Positions 30,236 through 54,794 of a stretch of DNA of 60,664 bases are shown here, piece by piece. Source of the DNA: Gammaproteobacteria bacterium (GTDB lineage: Bacteria; Pseudomonadota; Gammaproteobacteria; Pseudomonadales; Azotimanducaceae); assembly GCA_026706385.1 (NCBI GenBank), contig JAPOYV010000132.1, forward strand, positions 1 through 60,664, read 5' to 3'. Every line of letters starts with the position of its first letter. Positions within the stretch are counted from its first letter, which is position 1. Both the position numbers and the translations under genes were made by a program. Below the pieces are notes generated by a model. It ran no database searches and was not told the origin of the DNA. It saw only the letters and a program-made list of their open reading frames with translations.

Positions 30236-31243
30236 TCAACCGCCGCCGAGTTCGAAACGTGCCACGTTGTTTTCGCGCGTAAACGGCCCGAGATCGACGG
30301 ATTCGCCGTCGAACTCCACGCGCACGGCCAGCGCGTTGCCCACCAGTATGCTGAGGGGGACCTGACCTGCCACCGTGATCGTGCGGCCGTTTCGGCCCAG
30401 ATCGCCGAACAGTTGCCTGCCTGTTGCGTCGTCAACGCTGACCCAGGACTCGTCGTCGAAGACCACCGTCAATTCACCGACCACGCCGCTCACGGCGGTC
30501 GTGCCGTCGGCAGACGCAGGTACCCCATCGGCAACCCCGTCAGACGCGAACGACCGGGCCTCGTCGTGCTCCCCGGTCTGGGCTTGGGGCTCCGCAGGTA
30601 GCGCCGCGGATGCGACCGGCTCGTCGGCGACCGCCAGCGCCGGGGTGATGGGCTCCTGATCGGCGGTTGCCACCTCGGAACCTCCATCAGCCGCCCCGTC
30701 TTCGGCGGCGCCATCCGTAACTATCGGCCACGGCGACACGTTCGGCCGGCCCGCCGGGGATTCCGTCGCAGGCTCCGCTGCCGGCGGCTCGACCACGTCG
30801 TCGGCGAGGAACGGGAACTGCCAGTCCTGCACGCGCCACGCCGTCCACAACACCGCGCCCAGCGCAATGAGCAGAACCGCCACGATGGCGGCGTAACCGA
30901 GAGCCAGCGGCCGCAACGCCAGTTCCGACTTGGGCGTCACACGATGCCGCGGCACGACGACGCTCGGTTCCGGGCGGCCCGCGTCGGCAGCGTCGAAGCG
31001 CCGCGCCAGTTCATCGGCATCGAGGCCGAGAACTCGGGCGTAGTTGCGCACGTAACCCCGCGCATAGGGCCGCATCGGCAGATCCGCGAAGCGGCCTTCC
31101 TCGATGGCGAAGACGACAGCGACATCCAGATGCAGCGCGTCGGCCACCTCGTCCGGGGTCATCCCGGTGGCCTCGCGGGCCGTACGGAACAGTAGGCCGA
31201 ACTCCGCGCTCGGCGATTCACCGCTCGCGGCTGGCTCCGTCAT
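30236..31243 (-). CDS. rodZ: cytoskeletal protein RodZ
   Basis: A protein of 335 residues. The N-terminal Cro/C1-type HTH (about 14-85) contains G-L-L-F-R-T-A-R-E-A and Y-A-R-G-Y-V-R-N-Y-A-R. One transmembrane helix spans about 112-135, followed by an Ala/Glu/Pro-rich linker. The periplasmic DUF4115-type beta domain runs from about 255 to the end. It links MreB to the membrane and controls rod shape. The ATG overlaps the rlmN stop (ATGA). This start removes an in-frame upstream extension that lies inside rlmN. Confidence 0.9.
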   Translation of the reverse strand: MTEPAASGESPSAEFGLLFRTAREATGMTPDEVADALHLDVAVVFAIEEGRFADLPMRPYARGYVRNYARVLGLDADELARRFDAADAGRPEPSVVVPRHRVTPKSELALRPLALGYAAIVAVLLIALGAVLWTAWRVQDWQFPFLADDVVEPPAAEPATESPAGRPNVSPWPIVTDGAAEDGAADGGSEVATADQEPITPALAVADEPVASAALPAEPQAQTGEHDEARSFASDGVADGVPASADGTTAVSGVVGELTVVFDDESWVSVDDATGRQLFGDLGRNGRTITVAGQVPLSILVGNALAVRVEFDGESVDLGPFTRENNVARFELGGG

Positions 31244-32481
31244 GCCACGGCACCTCTGTCCACCAACCGCACCGGCTCGGGCAAACCGTAGCGGGCCCGT
31301 CGCTGCGTCCGGTCGTGGAATTCGCCGGTCAATTGGCCACAGGCCGCAGCGATGTCGTCGCCCCGCGTCGTGCGCAACATGGCCACGAGGCCGCCGTCGA
31401 GGAGCGTCCGCTGGAAGGCAACAACGCGGGTCGCACTTGGGCGCTTGTACGTCGGCAGCCCGCCGGCCACGGGGAACGGGTTGAAGGGAATCAGATTGAC
31501 CATGCAGCGCCAGTCCCGCAGCAAGGCGACGAGGTCGCGGGCGTCCGCCAAGGAGTCGTTGACACCGTCGATCAACGTGTACTCGAAGGTAATCGGGCGC
31601 CGGTCGCCGACCTTTGCAAGGTAGTACCGGCACGCGGCGAGCAACTCGGCGATCGGGTACTTGCGGTTGATCGGGACCAGCCGGTCGCGCAAATCGTCGC
31701 GGGCCGCGTGCAACGACACCGCCAACGAGACGCCGCTGCGATCCGCGAGGTCGTAGATGCGCGGTACGACCCCGGCGGTGCTGATGGTGACCCGACGCTT
31801 CGAAATGCCGAAACCCAGGTCGTCCATGAACACGTCCGCAGCATCCATCGTCGCGTCGAAGTTGAGCAACGGTTCGCCCATGCCCATGAAGACGACGTTG
31901 GTGATCCGGCGCCCCTCCGTGCACGACTCGGCCGCAGCCCGCCAGGCCTGGCCGACGATCTCGGCGCGGCTGAGGTTGCCGCTGAAGCCTTGCTTGCCCG
32001 TCGCGCAGAAGGAGCAGTCGAGGGAACAGCCCACCTGCACCGAGATACACAAGGTATTGCGCTTGGCCTGACTCGATTCCTGCGAGGGGTTCCCCCTCGC
32101 GCTCCCCGGCTGAGGGCTCTTTTCTTGCGAGGGGTTCCCCCTCGCGCTCCCCGGCTGAGGGCTCTCACGACCGTCCGGGATCAGCACGGTCTCGACGGCG
32201 CGCGATGGGCCAACGGAGGCGAGCCATTTGACGACGCCATCGCCGGCACGGTCCGCCACCTTGAGTTCCGGCGCACGTATCTCGGCGACCTCCTTGAGCC
32301 GGGCCCGCAGCGCCTTCCCGAGGTCGGTCATGACGTCGAAGTCGGCCGTACCCGCGCGATACAGCCACTTCATGACCTGGTTCGCCCGGTAGGGCTTTTC
32401 GCCGAGGTCTTGGAAGAAGCCGGCCAGTTCGCGACGCGGCATGCCGAGTAGGTTGGCCCTGTCGGGGCGTACATCCGCCAT
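31240..32481 (-). CDS. rlmN: dual-specificity 23S rRNA/tRNA adenine-C2 methyltransferase RlmN, with inserted repeat
   Basis: A radical-SAM enzyme of 413 residues. The 4Fe-4S cluster motif C-S-L-D-C-S-F-C has cysteines at 152, 156 and 159, and the C-terminal G-D-D-I-A-A-A-C-G-Q-L supplies the second catalytic cysteine. It methylates A2503 of 23S rRNA and A37 of some tRNAs. Residues about 106-136 are an insertion of two tandem S-P-Q-P-G-S-A-R-G-N-P-S-Q-E units. They lie between the N-terminal domain and the strand that starts the radical-SAM core, where E. coli RlmN has only a short loop. The reading frame is unbroken, so the enzyme is probably active with an extra disordered loop. pilF, often next to it, is absent. 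Confidence 0.93.
   Translation of the reverse strand: MADVRPDRANLLGMPRRELAGFFQDLGEKPYRANQVMKWLYRAGTADFDVMTDLGKALRARLKEVAEIRAPELKVADRAGDGVVKWLASVGPSRAVETVLIPDGRESPQPGSARGNPSQEKSPQPGSARGNPSQESSQAKRNTLCISVQVGCSLDCSFCATGKQGFSGNLSRAEIVGQAWRAAAESCTEGRRITNVVFMGMGEPLLNFDATMDAADVFMDDLGFGISKRRVTISTAGVVPRIYDLADRSGVSLAVSLHAARDDLRDRLVPINRKYPIAELLAACRYYLAKVGDRRPITFEYTLIDGVNDSLADARDLVALLRDWRCMVNLIPFNPFPVAGGLPTYKRPSATRVVAFQRTLLDGGLVAMLRTTRGDDIAAACGQLTGEFHDRTQRRARYGLPEPVRLVDRGAVA
32078..32166 (-). repeat. two tandem copies of a 45-bp palindromic repeat inside rlmN
   Basis: Two units of 45 bp lie inside the rlmN coding region. Each contains an 8-bp inverted repeat, GCGAGGGG and CCCCTCGC, around the loop GAA (coding strand). 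Neighbouring units differ by only a few bases. The same element occurs seven times in suhB in the same orientation relative to coding, but there it is read in another frame. The 45-bp period keeps frame. Confidence 0.9.
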
Positions 32482-36514: not shown

Positions 36515-37152
36515 TGGAACACTTCGAACTGGCCGGAAAGACGGCAGCCCTGGTGGGGACGGGCAACCCCGCGGCGGATGCCATTGCCGCCGCCTATCGG
36601 GAAGCTGGCGCCGAGGTCGTGCCGGCGTCGCGCATCGAGGAACTCGAGACGCCGTTCGACATCGTCGCGATCGCCCAGGACGCGTTTCTCGCCAAGCCCA
36701 TTGCCGAGATCGGCGATGACGAACTCGAGCGCGTTCTCGGTGCCAACCTGGGCGGTGTCTTCGCCGCCCTGCGGGCCGCCCAACGTGCCATCCGCCGCCC
36801 GGGGCGGATCGTCGTCGTCACCAGCGTGCTCGGCGAGCGCGGGTTGCCGAACTGCTCCGCGTACGCGGCCGCCCACGGCGCCGTGCACAATCTCATCCGT
36901 GCGGTTGCGCAGGAATTCGCCCCGGCGGACATCTCCGTCAACGGCATCGCAATCGGCTGGATGGACTGGATGCACGACCGCCTCGATCCCGCGGACCCGG
37001 AAGCGGCGCGCGCCGTTCGCTTCACGATCCTCAAACGCCCCGGCACGGCGGATGACATAGGCGCGCTCGCCGTTTGGCTCTCCGGCAGCGGCGCGGGCTT
37101 CGTCACGGGCCAGATCTTCACCGCCGATGGCGGCCTAACGACGCATCTCTAA
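36514..37152 (+). CDS. degenerate SDR-family protein, catalytic Lys replaced
   Basis: A protein of 212 residues, recognisable as an SDR by the V-V-V-T-S-V-L-G strand, S...Y-A-A-A-H, the N-G-I-A-I-G-W segment and F-T-A-D-G-G-L at the end. The cofactor-binding Gly-rich loop is altered (G-T-G-N-P-A-A-D where T-G-x-x-x-G-x-G is expected). The catalytic Y-x-x-x-K reads Y-x-x-x-H. It is also about 40-50 residues shorter than its neighbour. It may be a non-catalytic partner of the complete SDR with which it is translationally coupled, or an enzyme with altered chemistry. The frame is intact, so it is not an obvious pseudogene. Confidence 0.8.
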   Translation: MEHFELAGKTAALVGTGNPAADAIAAAYREAGAEVVPASRIEELETPFDIVAIAQDAFLAKPIAEIGDDELERVLGANLGGVFAALRAAQRAIRRPGRIVVVTSVLGERGLPNCSAYAAAHGAVHNLIRAVAQEFAPADISVNGIAIGWMDWMHDRLDPADPEAARAVRFTILKRPGTADDIGALAVWLSGSGAGFVTGQIFTADGGLTTHL

Positions 37153-37174
37153 GCGAAAGGCGAGCCAGGTCCTC

Positions 37175-38305
37175 GTGGAACCGATGGTGAACATCGCCCT
37201 GCGCGCCGCGCGCAACGCCGGGCGCATCATCCTGCGCGCGATGGACCGGGTCGATACGCTCACAATCGAAGAGAAGGGGCGCAACGACCTGGTCTCGGAG
37301 ATCGACCGCCAAGCGGAGGACGTGATCGTCGAGACCATCCTGCGCACCTTCCCGGACCACCGCATACTCGGCGAGGAGTACGGCGAGCGAGAGCCCTCAG
37401 CCGGGGAGCGCGAGGGGGCACCCCTCGCAAGAGAGCCCTCAGCCGGGGAGCGCGAGGGGGCACCCCTCGCAAGAAGAGAGCCCTCAGCCGGGGAGCGCGA
37501 GGGGGCACCCCTCGCAAGAAGAGAGCCCTCAGCCGGGGAGCGCGAGGGGGCACCCCTCGCAAGAAGAGAGCCCTCAGCCGGGGAGCGCGAGGGGGCACCC
37601 CTCGCAAGAAGAGAGCCCTCAGCCGGGGAGCGCGAGGGGGCACCCCTCGCAAGAAGAGAGCCCTCAGCCGGGGAGCGCGAGGGGGCACCCCTCGCAAGAA
37701 GAGCAACCGATACCGAATTCACCTGGGTGATCGATCCCCTGGACGGTACCACCAACTTCCTGCACGGCATTCCCCATTTCTGCACGTCCATCGCCGTCAC
37801 GCGTGGCGCCGCCCTGCTGCACGGCGTGGTAGTCGACCACGTCCGCAACGAGGAGTTCAGCGCCAGTCGCGGCGCCGGGGCGCTGCTCAACGGACGCCGC
37901 ATTCGCGTCGCGCGCCGGGACCGCCTCGACGACGCCATCGTTGCCGGCGGCCTGCCGTTCGCCAGCGTCGCGGCGCATCTCGACGCCTACAGCGACATCC
38001 TCCGAGACTTCATGGGGCGATGCCGGACCTTGCGCCGGCAAGGCGCCGCCGCGCTCGACCTGGCCTACGTCGCAGCCGGCCGCGTCGATGGCTTCTTCGA
38101 GATCGGGCTGAAGCCTTGGGACATGGCGGCCGGGGCCGTCATCGTGCGGGAGGCCGGCGGCTTCGTGGGCGATGCCGCGGGCGGCGACCGGTTCATGACC
38201 ACCGGCAACGTCGTCGCCGCCAATCCCAAGGTTTTCCGGGACATGCTGCGGGTCATCCGCAAGAGTGCCGCCGAACATGCCGATGTGAACCTCGCCGAAG
38301 GCTGA
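37175..38305 (+). CDS. suhB: inositol-1-monophosphatase SuhB, with large in-frame repeat insertion
   Basis: A protein of 376 residues, about 105 longer than the family. The N-terminus M-E-P-M-V-N-I-A-L-R-A-A-R matches E. coli SuhB and supports the GTG at 37175. Metal-site residues are present: G-E-E near 67, then W-V-I-D-P-L-D-G-T-T-N-F, then K-P-W-D-M-A-A-G near the C-terminus. Between the first two lies an insertion (residues about 73-176) of seven E-P-S-A-G-E-R-E-G-A-P-L-A-R-R units. Without it the protein would be normal length. SuhB is a phosphatase that also binds RNA polymerase/NusA and affects rRNA transcription. The insert lies in a surface loop close to the active site. Activity is plausible but untested. 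Confidence 0.9.
   Translation: MEPMVNIALRAARNAGRIILRAMDRVDTLTIEEKGRNDLVSEIDRQAEDVIVETILRTFPDHRILGEEYGEREPSAGEREGAPLAREPSAGEREGAPLARREPSAGEREGAPLARREPSAGEREGAPLARREPSAGEREGAPLARREPSAGEREGAPLARREPSAGEREGAPLARRATDTEFTWVIDPLDGTTNFLHGIPHFCTSIAVTRGAALLHGVVVDHVRNEEFSASRGAGALLNGRRIRVARRDRLDDAIVAGGLPFASVAAHLDAYSDILRDFMGRCRTLRRQGAAALDLAYVAAGRVDGFFEIGLKPWDMAAGAVIVREAGGFVGDAAGGDRFMTTGNVVAANPKVFRDMLRVIRKSAAEHADVNLAEG
37391..37704 (+). repeat. seven tandem copies of the 45-bp palindromic repeat inside suhB
   Basis: The units start at 37391, 37433, 37478, 37523, 37568, 37613 and 37658. The first interval is 42 bp and the others 45 bp, all multiples of three. Units are essentially identical. Each has GCGAGGGG, loop GCA, CCCCTCGC. 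The related pair in rlmN has loop GAA with the same stem. There are no spacers, so it is not a CRISPR array. Confidence 0.95.
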
Positions 38306-53252: not shown

Positions 53253-54794
53253 TCATCTCCCCATCGCTTCCCGGGAGAGAGCGATCGGAAACTCGGCCCT
53301 GATCCTTGCGTCGATTTCGTCGCTGACGTGGCGGGGCACGTGGCGGCCGAGAAGCTCCCGGGTCCTCTCGATGGCCAGATCCAGCAGAACCGGCTTGCCG
53401 AGTTCCTCCCAGACCGTCGGGCTGGTGCGGTCGCTGTAGTCCGGGTAGATGTACTCGCTTTGCATGACCTGCAGGGTGTTCCCGGAGCCCAGGTAGTGGC
53501 CTTCCCCGCCTAAGCAGATCCGTTCGATCTCCTCGAAACTCAAGGTGTCGGTGTTGACTTCGATGCCACGGACAGCGCGGCCGACGGATCCCAGGATGTC
53601 GTTGTCCAGCAACAGGCTCTCCGGGCACGTGCCCAGAAGGCTCGCGTACATGCCGGCGGATTCATAGACGATGTTCGCGCCGGACAAGGCCGCCGCGAGC
53701 ACCGTGGCCGCGCGTTCGGCGCCCGCCTGAAAGTCGGGGAACTTGGCGTCGCTCATGCCGCAAGCCGTGCCGAAGGGCAGGTCGAAGTGGTTGCCGACCT
53801 GGGCGCAGGCGGCGGACAGCAGGCCCTGCTCCGGGGAGCCGCCGCTCATCGCTCCGGTACGCAGGTCCGAGACGAACGGCCAGGCGCCGAGAATCGCCGG
53901 TGCGCCAGGCTCGATCGCGTTCACGTAGACCAGGCCGCCGAGGCACTCCGCCCACGCTTGGGAGACCGTCCCGGCCAAGTAGGCCGGCGCGGTCGCACCC
54001 GCCTGTGCTGCCGACAACAGTAAGACCGGCATGCCGCCCTGTACGGCGACCCGGAGGCATTCCATCGCATCGGTGGCGAACTTGAGCGGCGGCACAACGA
54101 AGCAGTTGGACTGGCTGACGAAAGGCCGGGCACGCCACTGCGCCTCGCCGCCGGCGATCAGGTGCAGCATCTCGAAGCTCTTCTCGAGGTGTTCGTACAC
54201 CGTCCAACTCGAACCGACGTGCTTGCTCGTGCCCATCACCGAGCAGTAGAGGGTGTTGATGTCCAGCGCGTAGTTGTCGGGAGTGTCCCGCGGCACGCAG
54301 GTGCGCTGGAACATGTGAATGTGCTCGCAGGTGTCGGTGATCCGCGCCATGTCGTAGAGGTCCTGCGCCATGGAGTCCCGGTAGAGGCCGTTCTCCGAGT
54401 CGGCGAGCATGACCGCCGCGCCGGCGGTTGAGAAATGCACCCGCGAGCCGCTCAAGTCCAGGTCCCAGCGCGGATCCTGACCGTGCAGCACCAGATTCCG
54501 GCGCGCCTTAAGCAACGTGCGTTCGACCAGACTCCGCGGCATGCGCAGACGTCCGTCGTCGCCGAGCACGGCGCCGGCGGCCGTACAGGTCTCGATGCAG
54601 TGTGGCGTGGCGTCGGCGAAACCCACCCTCTCGAGAATATCGAAGGCGTTGTCCGCGATGGCAAGAACGCCGTCAGCGGAGAGGGGTTGGAATTGTCCGC
54701 CGGTCTGCCCCGGCCGAACCGGCTTGACCGCTTCGGCCAAGGGTGCGGCGCGCTCGGCCTTGCGCGCCCGTCTACCGCCTGAACGTCGAGCCAT
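53253..54794 (-). CDS. trimethylamine methyltransferase (MttB) family protein, non-pyrrolysine
   Basis: A TIM-barrel protein of 513 residues with a basic N-terminus. Recognisable MttB-family segments include R-V-H-F-S-T-A-G-A-A-V, G-L-Y-R-D-S, G-A-M-S-G-G-S-P-E-Q, and C-G-M-S-D-A-K-F-P-D. There is no in-frame TAG, so it lacks pyrrolysine. Non-pyrrolysine members demethylate substrates such as glycine betaine or other quaternary amines onto a corrinoid protein. A strong ribosome site (GGGAGGA) lies before the ATG at 54794. It is the last gene of the corrinoid operon. The substrate is not known from sequence. Confidence 0.88.
   Translation of the reverse strand: MARRSGGRRARKAERAAPLAEAVKPVRPGQTGGQFQPLSADGVLAIADNAFDILERVGFADATPHCIETCTAAGAVLGDDGRLRMPRSLVERTLLKARRNLVLHGQDPRWDLDLSGSRVHFSTAGAAVMLADSENGLYRDSMAQDLYDMARITDTCEHIHMFQRTCVPRDTPDNYALDINTLYCSVMGTSKHVGSSWTVYEHLEKSFEMLHLIAGGEAQWRARPFVSQSNCFVVPPLKFATDAMECLRVAVQGGMPVLLLSAAQAGATAPAYLAGTVSQAWAECLGGLVYVNAIEPGAPAILGAWPFVSDLRTGAMSGGSPEQGLLSAACAQVGNHFDLPFGTACGMSDAKFPDFQAGAERAATVLAAALSGANIVYESAGMYASLLGTCPESLLLDNDILGSVGRAVRGIEVNTDTLSFEEIERICLGGEGHYLGSGNTLQVMQSEYIYPDYSDRTSPTVWEELGKPVLLDLAIERTRELLGRHVPRHVSDEIDARIRAEFPIALSREAMGR

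Follow-up and report, generated by a model that had tools for sequence, protein, structure and literature searches.

Members of the IS200/IS605 family and their non-autonomous derivatives carry a subterminal hairpin and have an end that resembles the target; they insert on the 3' side of a fixed, short sequence and make no long target duplication. The REP/REPIN sequences of the GTAG family, associated with RAYT/TnpA_REP in E. coli, Pseudomonas and Stenotrophomonas, are short palindromes found mostly between genes. According to two studies, REPs usually exceed 100 copies (PMC2817692), and the S. maltophilia REP is an 8-bp perfect palindrome with a 3-nt loop, cut by TnpA_REP at CT (PMC8266576). 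CGTC REPs, which include Rickettsia RPE-4 and RPE-6, occur as in-frame insertions in conserved genes, with no known dedicated transposase. This class is described as having mostly a CCA-like tail end, AT pairs at the first two stem positions and head-to-head dimers, head-to-tail pairs being negligible (Di Nocera 2013, PMC3733652). Other Rickettsia palindromic elements, such as RPE-1, place palindromic DNA in the ORFs of unrelated proteins. PARCEL is described as an amphipathic palindromic coding repeat, tandem in genes and spread among diverse microbes (PMC2996958).

Here, we describe a 45-nt palindromic repeat found in two genes of the window, meaning the whole stretch of 60,664 nucleotides that was analyzed. 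The literature search covered mostly papers readable without subscription, and no description of this repeat was found among the results listed.

Repeat units in rlmN and suhB, and their family

Five features of the window are referred to below:

31240-32481, minus strand: rlmN, the 23S rRNA/tRNA methyltransferase gene, an ORF matching Pfam RlmN_N and Radical_SAM and NCBIfam TIGR00048 RlmN (E 1.2e-122)
32075-32119, plus strand: rlmN repeat unit 1, in orientation S, with a pyrimidine tract, a GCGAGGGG-TTC-CCCCTCGC hairpin and a GCTCCCCGGCTGAGGGCTC tail
32120-32164, plus strand: rlmN repeat unit 2, structured as unit 1, with an 8-bp hairpin in the ssDNA fold
37184-38305, plus strand: suhB, an inositol-1-monophosphatase gene with seven units inside, matching PF00459 above the cut-off and NCBIfam PRK10757 (inositol-1-monophosphatase) below it
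37391-37702, minus strand: suhB array of seven tandem units, with a GCA loop on the coding strand

The start codon of suhB was picked by reading the frame, which is open over 37139-38302. Tandem Repeats Finder reported 2.0 copies of a 45-nt unit in rlmN (32077-32165) and 7.1 copies in suhB (37389-37703). The six spacings in suhB were 45 nt in five cases and 42 nt in one. As judged from 16 orthologues, own included, the rlmN units occupy a variable loop between VLIP and TLCIS, where they are translated as ESPQPGSARGNPSQEK and SPQPGSARGNPSQE. The suhB array is translated as EPSAGEREGAPLARR.

A preliminary description had placed two copies of the suhB repeat in rlmN, at 32078-32166, on the same strand relative to coding and shifted by one base of frame. 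Both 45-nt units are present, the coordinates were right within 2-3 bases, and the orientation and the offset were correct. It had also stated that the stem is kept and only the loop differs. This holds on the coding strand, where the GCGAGGGG/CCCCTCGC stem is identical and the loop reads GAA in rlmN and GCA in suhB. With up to 3 mismatches, GCGAGGGGTTCCCCCTCGC had 18 matches in the window (9 sites, both strands) compared with a mean of 0.06 in shuffles, so the repeat is not a chance similarity. Elsewhere in the window, on the minus strand at 53657-53756, there was a match to Rfam PYLIS_3 (pyrrolysine insertion sequence of mttB), with 41.6 bits just over the gathering score of 38.

In orientation S, a TTTCTT-like pyrimidine tract of 6-7 nt comes first in the unit of ~45 nt, followed in order by GCGAGGGG, a loop, CCCCTCGC and GCTCCCCGGCTGAGGGCTC. 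The hairpin has 8 bp and a loop of mostly 3-4 nt, and the 19-nt tail has a constant GCTC end. Genes read the opposite strand, R, as GAGCCCTCAGCCGGGGAGCGCGAGGGG..CCCCTCGCAAGAAA. Seventy-one distinct units were collected with a pattern tolerating 2 mismatches in each arm of the stem and 3 in the tail. Their alignment showed a variable pyrimidine tract before the stem (consensus TTTCTT) and GCTCCCC after it. There was no GTAG beside the stem, a difference from GTAG REPs, and no CGTC tag in the 45-nt consensus, a difference from CGTC REPs.

A covariance model was built from the 71 units. In the own genome (G000), it gave 151 matches at E <= 0.1, with 150 of the 7224 first-look candidates scored. 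Among 58 genomes searched at E <= 0.001, the repeat was carried by 16 of 16 from the same genus, counting the own genome, with between 3 and 135 matches each, by 2 of 21 others from the same family (G021 and G028), and by none of 21 from other families of the order. The fetched loci held 84 arrays, 36 of them multi-unit, and 34 of these 36 were uniform in orientation, head to tail. GTAG REPs, in contrast, form head-to-head pairs, and the head-to-tail order and GCTC end also set the present unit apart from CGTC REPs. In G000, contigs at L015, L018, L022, L028 and L030 terminate in repeat arrays or within 15 bases of them. Since several contigs end at arrays, copy numbers in these assemblies are probably underestimates.

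Among the matches listed for the core pattern, those in Rhodobacteraceae, Salinicola and viruses share GCGAGGGG..CCCCTCGCGCTCCCC and continue differently (e.g. AGTATTT), and they were excluded from the family. Many Rhodobacteraceae records (L060-L177, e.g. L084, L091, L104) have GCGAGGGG-loop-CCCCTCGCGCTCCCCGG followed by AGTATTT. Their core equals the hairpin module of the present family and the remainder differs; it may be a common module or a convergence.

Empty sites, insertion junctions and candidate enzymes

The preliminary description had called the repeat a mobile element, and the dispersed family, together with orthologous sites that are empty in one genome and filled in another, establishes it as a mobile palindromic element. 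For 37 arrays, orthologous DNA was available on both sides in the relative G007. When these were read by eye, at least 11 proved to be clean empty sites in G007. At the single-unit sites among these 11 or more, the net gain was 45 nt (five sites), 47 nt and 48 nt. In the rlmN of G005, there are three units of another subfamily. The rlmN genes most similar to it by eye, in G009 and G014, are empty and read VLIPEAGRATLC, with a TTC junction (by eye). Thirteen of the 16 rlmN orthologues had no recognisable unit, and several of these had a loop of variable length.

An ordinary intragenic VNTR, with copy number changing by slippage or recombination and spread by occasional recombination rather than transposition, would account for some of the differences between relatives. 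The same rlmN loop has two units in G000 and three in G007, the suhB site has seven units in G000 and one diverged unit in G007, and most modules in G021 are flanked by short GCTC direct repeats. However, single units lie at sites that are empty in G007 and have unique flanks on both sides, and there are 84 dispersed arrays. We regard a VNTR as a very unlikely origin of the family; slippage may build arrays after a unit has landed.

Junctions were read automatically in 16 pairs lacking a copy in G007 by motif, with anchoring on the right flank only. Two pairs without a clear right end and three with a poor flank match (junctions GC, CA and TC) were set aside. TC was found at the junction of the empty allele in 6 of the 11 scored sites, compared with 0-3 of 11 at positions slid by one to six bases. 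Once one degenerate copy (a TC site) and one unclear site are dropped, the count becomes 5 of 9. At the other 4 of 9 clean sites, TC was not exactly at the junction, which for L029, one of the four, may be due to a small indel. Reading by eye gave TC at nearly every junction; the lower automatic count is the one reported here. No long target duplication was seen, and at most 2 bp were shared at junctions, where a cut beside TC looks the same as a 2-bp TC duplication.

For this reason, the TC on both sides of the insert equally suits a MITE of the classical kind, for which a DDE transposase would duplicate 2 bp of target (TC) and the hairpin would be incidental; a MITE would also leave empty sites. 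On the other hand, MITEs are defined by terminal inverted repeats and a target duplication, and inspection showed no inverted repeats at the unit ends. The hairpin is internal, the ends (pyrimidine tract and GGGCTC) are unrelated to each other, and no more than 2 bp are shared at the junctions. To our knowledge, no family has a 2-bp TC duplication. A MITE is an unlikely reading of these data.

The repeat is instead probably a small, non-autonomous mobile palindromic element with a REP/RPE-like way of life, moved by trans-acting single-strand transposition at TC/GCTC. REP/IS200-like single-strand transposition is the most likely mechanism. An enzyme acting in trans would move the unit, probably as single-stranded DNA, cutting at (Y)TC / GCTC, and would paste it 3' of a target TC, with no long duplication of the target. 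As each unit itself ends in GCTC, a further one can be placed behind it. Head-to-tail arrays would then arise by pasting a unit behind the GCTC end of the previous one, or by slippage duplicating a unit. Frame-keeping insertions in tolerant loops would survive and be translated in the resulting frame, and most others would survive only between genes. The repeat resembles the IS200/IS605 family in its hairpin, the lack of a long target duplication and its target-like end, and it may likewise insert beside a fixed short sequence. S. maltophilia TnpA_REP, which cuts at CT next to a hairpin with 8 bp and a 3-nt loop (PMC8266576), is the closest biochemical parallel.

Enzymes of this kind were searched for among the carriers. 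Y1_Tnp (PF01797) genes occurred in 10 of the 16 same-genus genomes, and the repeat copy number was higher in these (Mann-Whitney P 0.0055, kinship ignored). GTAG systems have a tyrosine transposase gene flanked by the repeat; here, the fetched flanks of all 19 Y1_Tnp matches in the genus were free of it. Eleven of the 19 lay less than 500 bases from a contig end, and since arrays often end contigs, a repeat-flanked copy could be hidden there. PF01797 had no match in G021, which has 85 repeat matches, or in G028. For a Y1 mover, the link to the repeat is a correlation with copy number, which fails in these two genomes. No TnpA was identified for the repeat in these assemblies, a difference from IS200/IS605. 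An IS91-type rolling-circle (Y2) mover was ruled against by the absence of Y2_Tnp (PF04986) from all 18 carrier genomes at E <= 0.001.

Two observations were made around the Y1 genes. Those at L218, L219 and L220 (G009, G014 and G005), which we take to be RAYT-like, adjoin a biotin-carboxylase-like gene. Close to the Y1 genes of L213 and L216, there are repeats of another kind (translated as VGATLVVA and GDHEGRPYG), which suggest that a second repeat family exists.

Stem conservation, reading frames and unit length

The preliminary description had read the conserved stem as selection on DNA or RNA structure. The stem was indeed found to be invariant. Non-consensus letters made up 2.0% of the stem, 2.9% of the unpaired tail, 41% of the loop and 26% of the lead, in an alignment whose conservation is biased upward by the pattern-based picking of the 71 units. 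Of the stem cells, 96.7% were paired, and no pair had changed on both sides. Shuffles attained the values observed in 500 of 500 cases. With the stem slid by 2 columns, 85.4% of cells still paired, owing to the runs of G and C. The 7-bp core was exact in 30 of 30 copies from 16 genomes, which had been selected as good model matches, a choice that favors invariance; there was no compensatory substitution among these either. Folding the units as ssDNA gave -11.0 to -11.3 kcal/mol, a modest gain over shuffles (z -1.48 to -2.15).

With a stem that is invariant rather than compensated, a tail about as conserved and a modest fold, selection on structure is not demonstrated. Recent copying from a master explains the invariance equally well. 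The data fit the copying of a sequence recognized by an enzyme, and they do not isolate structure. Units of 66 nt at L018, L026 and L030 in G000 retain the lead and tail and have a longer, GC-rich hairpin in place of the usual stem. These units, with their different hairpin, are the sole hint that the hairpin matters per se.

Arrays were classed as genic or not by a codon-usage classifier, with an identical rule for arrays and for random sites, the latter drawn from the window and the fetched loci. Of the 84 arrays, the 73 scoring 25 or more were classed, and 150 bases of flank on either side were available for 66 of them. Fourteen of the 66 arrays lay in genes, compared with 659 of 1054 random sites (Fisher P 5e-11), a roughly three-fold avoidance measured with a classifier that misses genes, since it called only 62.5% of the random sites genic. 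Such avoidance is expected if most genic insertions were lost, and it does not support the earlier proposal that the element is adapted to land inside genes. In the same proposal, the element was said to stay open in several frames. A mean of 4.82 of 6 frames was open in the 71 units, compared with 5.31 in dinucleotide and 5.00 in mononucleotide shuffles, so that no excess of open frames was found.

Translation in several frames, which had also been claimed, is established. In the 14 in-gene arrays, the sense codon positions were used 8, 3 and 2 times, which means that all three R frames are in use, and one array was antisense. This S-sense array falls within the gene of an ABC-transporter ATPase, in its C-terminal part. 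On this evidence, multi-frame translation is a by-product. A family-model match was obtained for 13 of the 14 in-gene hosts and not for one. The matched hosts are RsmH, ParC, EgtB, an alpha/beta hydrolase, a DUF4892 protein, CcmI, ZipA, DsbD, an OppD-like ATPase (below the NCBIfam cut-offs), type III pantothenate kinase, HrpA, SuhB and RlmN. In rsmH (L007:1321-2487, minus strand), three units lie mid-gene and a separate fourth near the C-terminus, all read as EPSAGEREG.

The R strand (GAGCCC...) was the sense strand in 13 of the 14 in-gene arrays, with P 0.0018 against one half and 0.012 against 0.6, the share expected with one S frame closed by TGA. This stricter 13:1 count supersedes an early by-eye count of 18:2. 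Among 23 other arrays with co-directional flanks, the R strand matched the mRNA sense in 17 and was opposite in 6. This orientation bias (13/14 and 17/23) would suit an element that selection keeps close to gene ends for its benefit to the host, such as an mRNA stabiliser, a processing site or a protein-binding site. So would the location of most arrays, which were not classed as in-gene, many lying between co-directional genes, and that of one hairpin-module array in G021, ~40 bases upstream of a 6S RNA match (L325:2168-2383). Against this, sites differ between close relatives, none of the five sources scanned had an Rfam family at gathering score at the repeat, and the invariant, uncompensated stem gives no sign of structure selection. 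We consider such a host function improbable.

In 24 of 24 in-gene cases, the end-to-end spacing was divisible by 3, as would be seen if a protein-level repeat had been duplicated in cis and the 15-residue peptide were the selected thing. Frame keeping, however, is expected from purifying selection on the host gene. The peptides are also three in the sense frames and one antisense, their hosts are unrelated proteins, and 52 of the 66 arrays were not classed as in-gene, which makes peptide selection highly implausible. In the arrays not classed as in-gene, some of which lacked the flank for classing, spacing was a multiple of 3 in 32 of 35 cases, which is outside the predictions of the transposition model favored above. 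Units with 3-nt and 4-nt loops have compensating leads, both being 45 nt long, and arrays with periods of 43 nt (G021) and 46 nt (G010) exist. As tandem copies are non-independent and these other periods occur, the 45-nt period is taken as the inherited length of a subfamily rather than as a coding rule. It lets in-gene arrays lengthen without a frameshift.

Modules in a sister genus and the place among REP-like families

In G021, a genome from a sister genus (g7), the unit is found among smaller modules. Hairpin modules are 27-31 nt long with a GCGCTC end, tail modules (CCCGGCTGARGGCTC) are 15-16 nt long, and further short pieces have 13 and 12 nt. Nearly all modules end in GCTC, some exceptions having CGCAC, GGCTG or CGCTT instead. 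Modules are found singly, in the combinations AAA-B and AB-AB, and inserted after the internal GCTC of a longer palindrome. This palindrome has 80-odd nt, contains CGTCAGC and the tail of the 45-nt unit, and ends in GGCTC. Joined to the palindrome's end piece, one hairpin module equals the 45-nt unit. The pattern CGTCAGC..GCTGANGGCTC was found 29 times in G021; within the own genus, it was found once, in G002, and not in the 15 remaining genomes, and G019 and G027 had one match each; the reversed control was found once each in G001, G005 and G014. As the pattern itself required CGTC, it says nothing on the conservation of CGTC.

A tentative and rather doubtful proposal concerns these composites: GCTC would be a recombination site, any GCTC-to-GCTC segment could turn mobile, and a g7 module in the palindrome could have yielded the unit type of the own genus (g1). 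In genus g7, a hairpin module with a GCGCTC end would have jumped into the internal GCTC of the palindrome of 80-odd nt. What lies between that point and the palindrome's GCTC end would be the kind of 45-nt unit that spread independently through genus g1.

The repeat lies within the broad REP-like definition, being a palindromic sequence of 20-45 nt with tens to hundreds of copies, mostly extragenic and without coding capacity. It shares with CGTC REPs the in-frame position in conserved genes, and the CGTCAGC-containing palindrome of G021 includes the tail of the present unit. It likewise resembles RPE-1 and its kind, compared by description, in placing palindromic DNA in ORFs of unrelated proteins; RPE-1 is described as longer (PMC3733652). 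With PARCEL, as described, it has in common that it is palindromic and tandem in genes, but the present repeat is mostly between genes and is read in several frames. Its novelty is the untagged, head-to-tail, GCTC-ended modular design; otherwise, it is a REP/RPE-like element.

Most REP-like families are known in their finished state, and no mover is known for the CGTC class (PMC3733652). In the present family, related genomes have a given site empty or filled, contain intermediate composites and range in copy number from 3 to 135, which makes junction rules and candidate enzymes testable. If true, the assembly of units between GCTC sites would be a route for the birth of new REP-like families from parts, without a transposase of their own. 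For the hosts, a selfish hairpin adds 15-residue blocks to housekeeping proteins (RlmN, SuhB, RsmH, ParC, HrpA, EgtB, ZipA, DsbD and others), and such additions are a possible source of variable loops.
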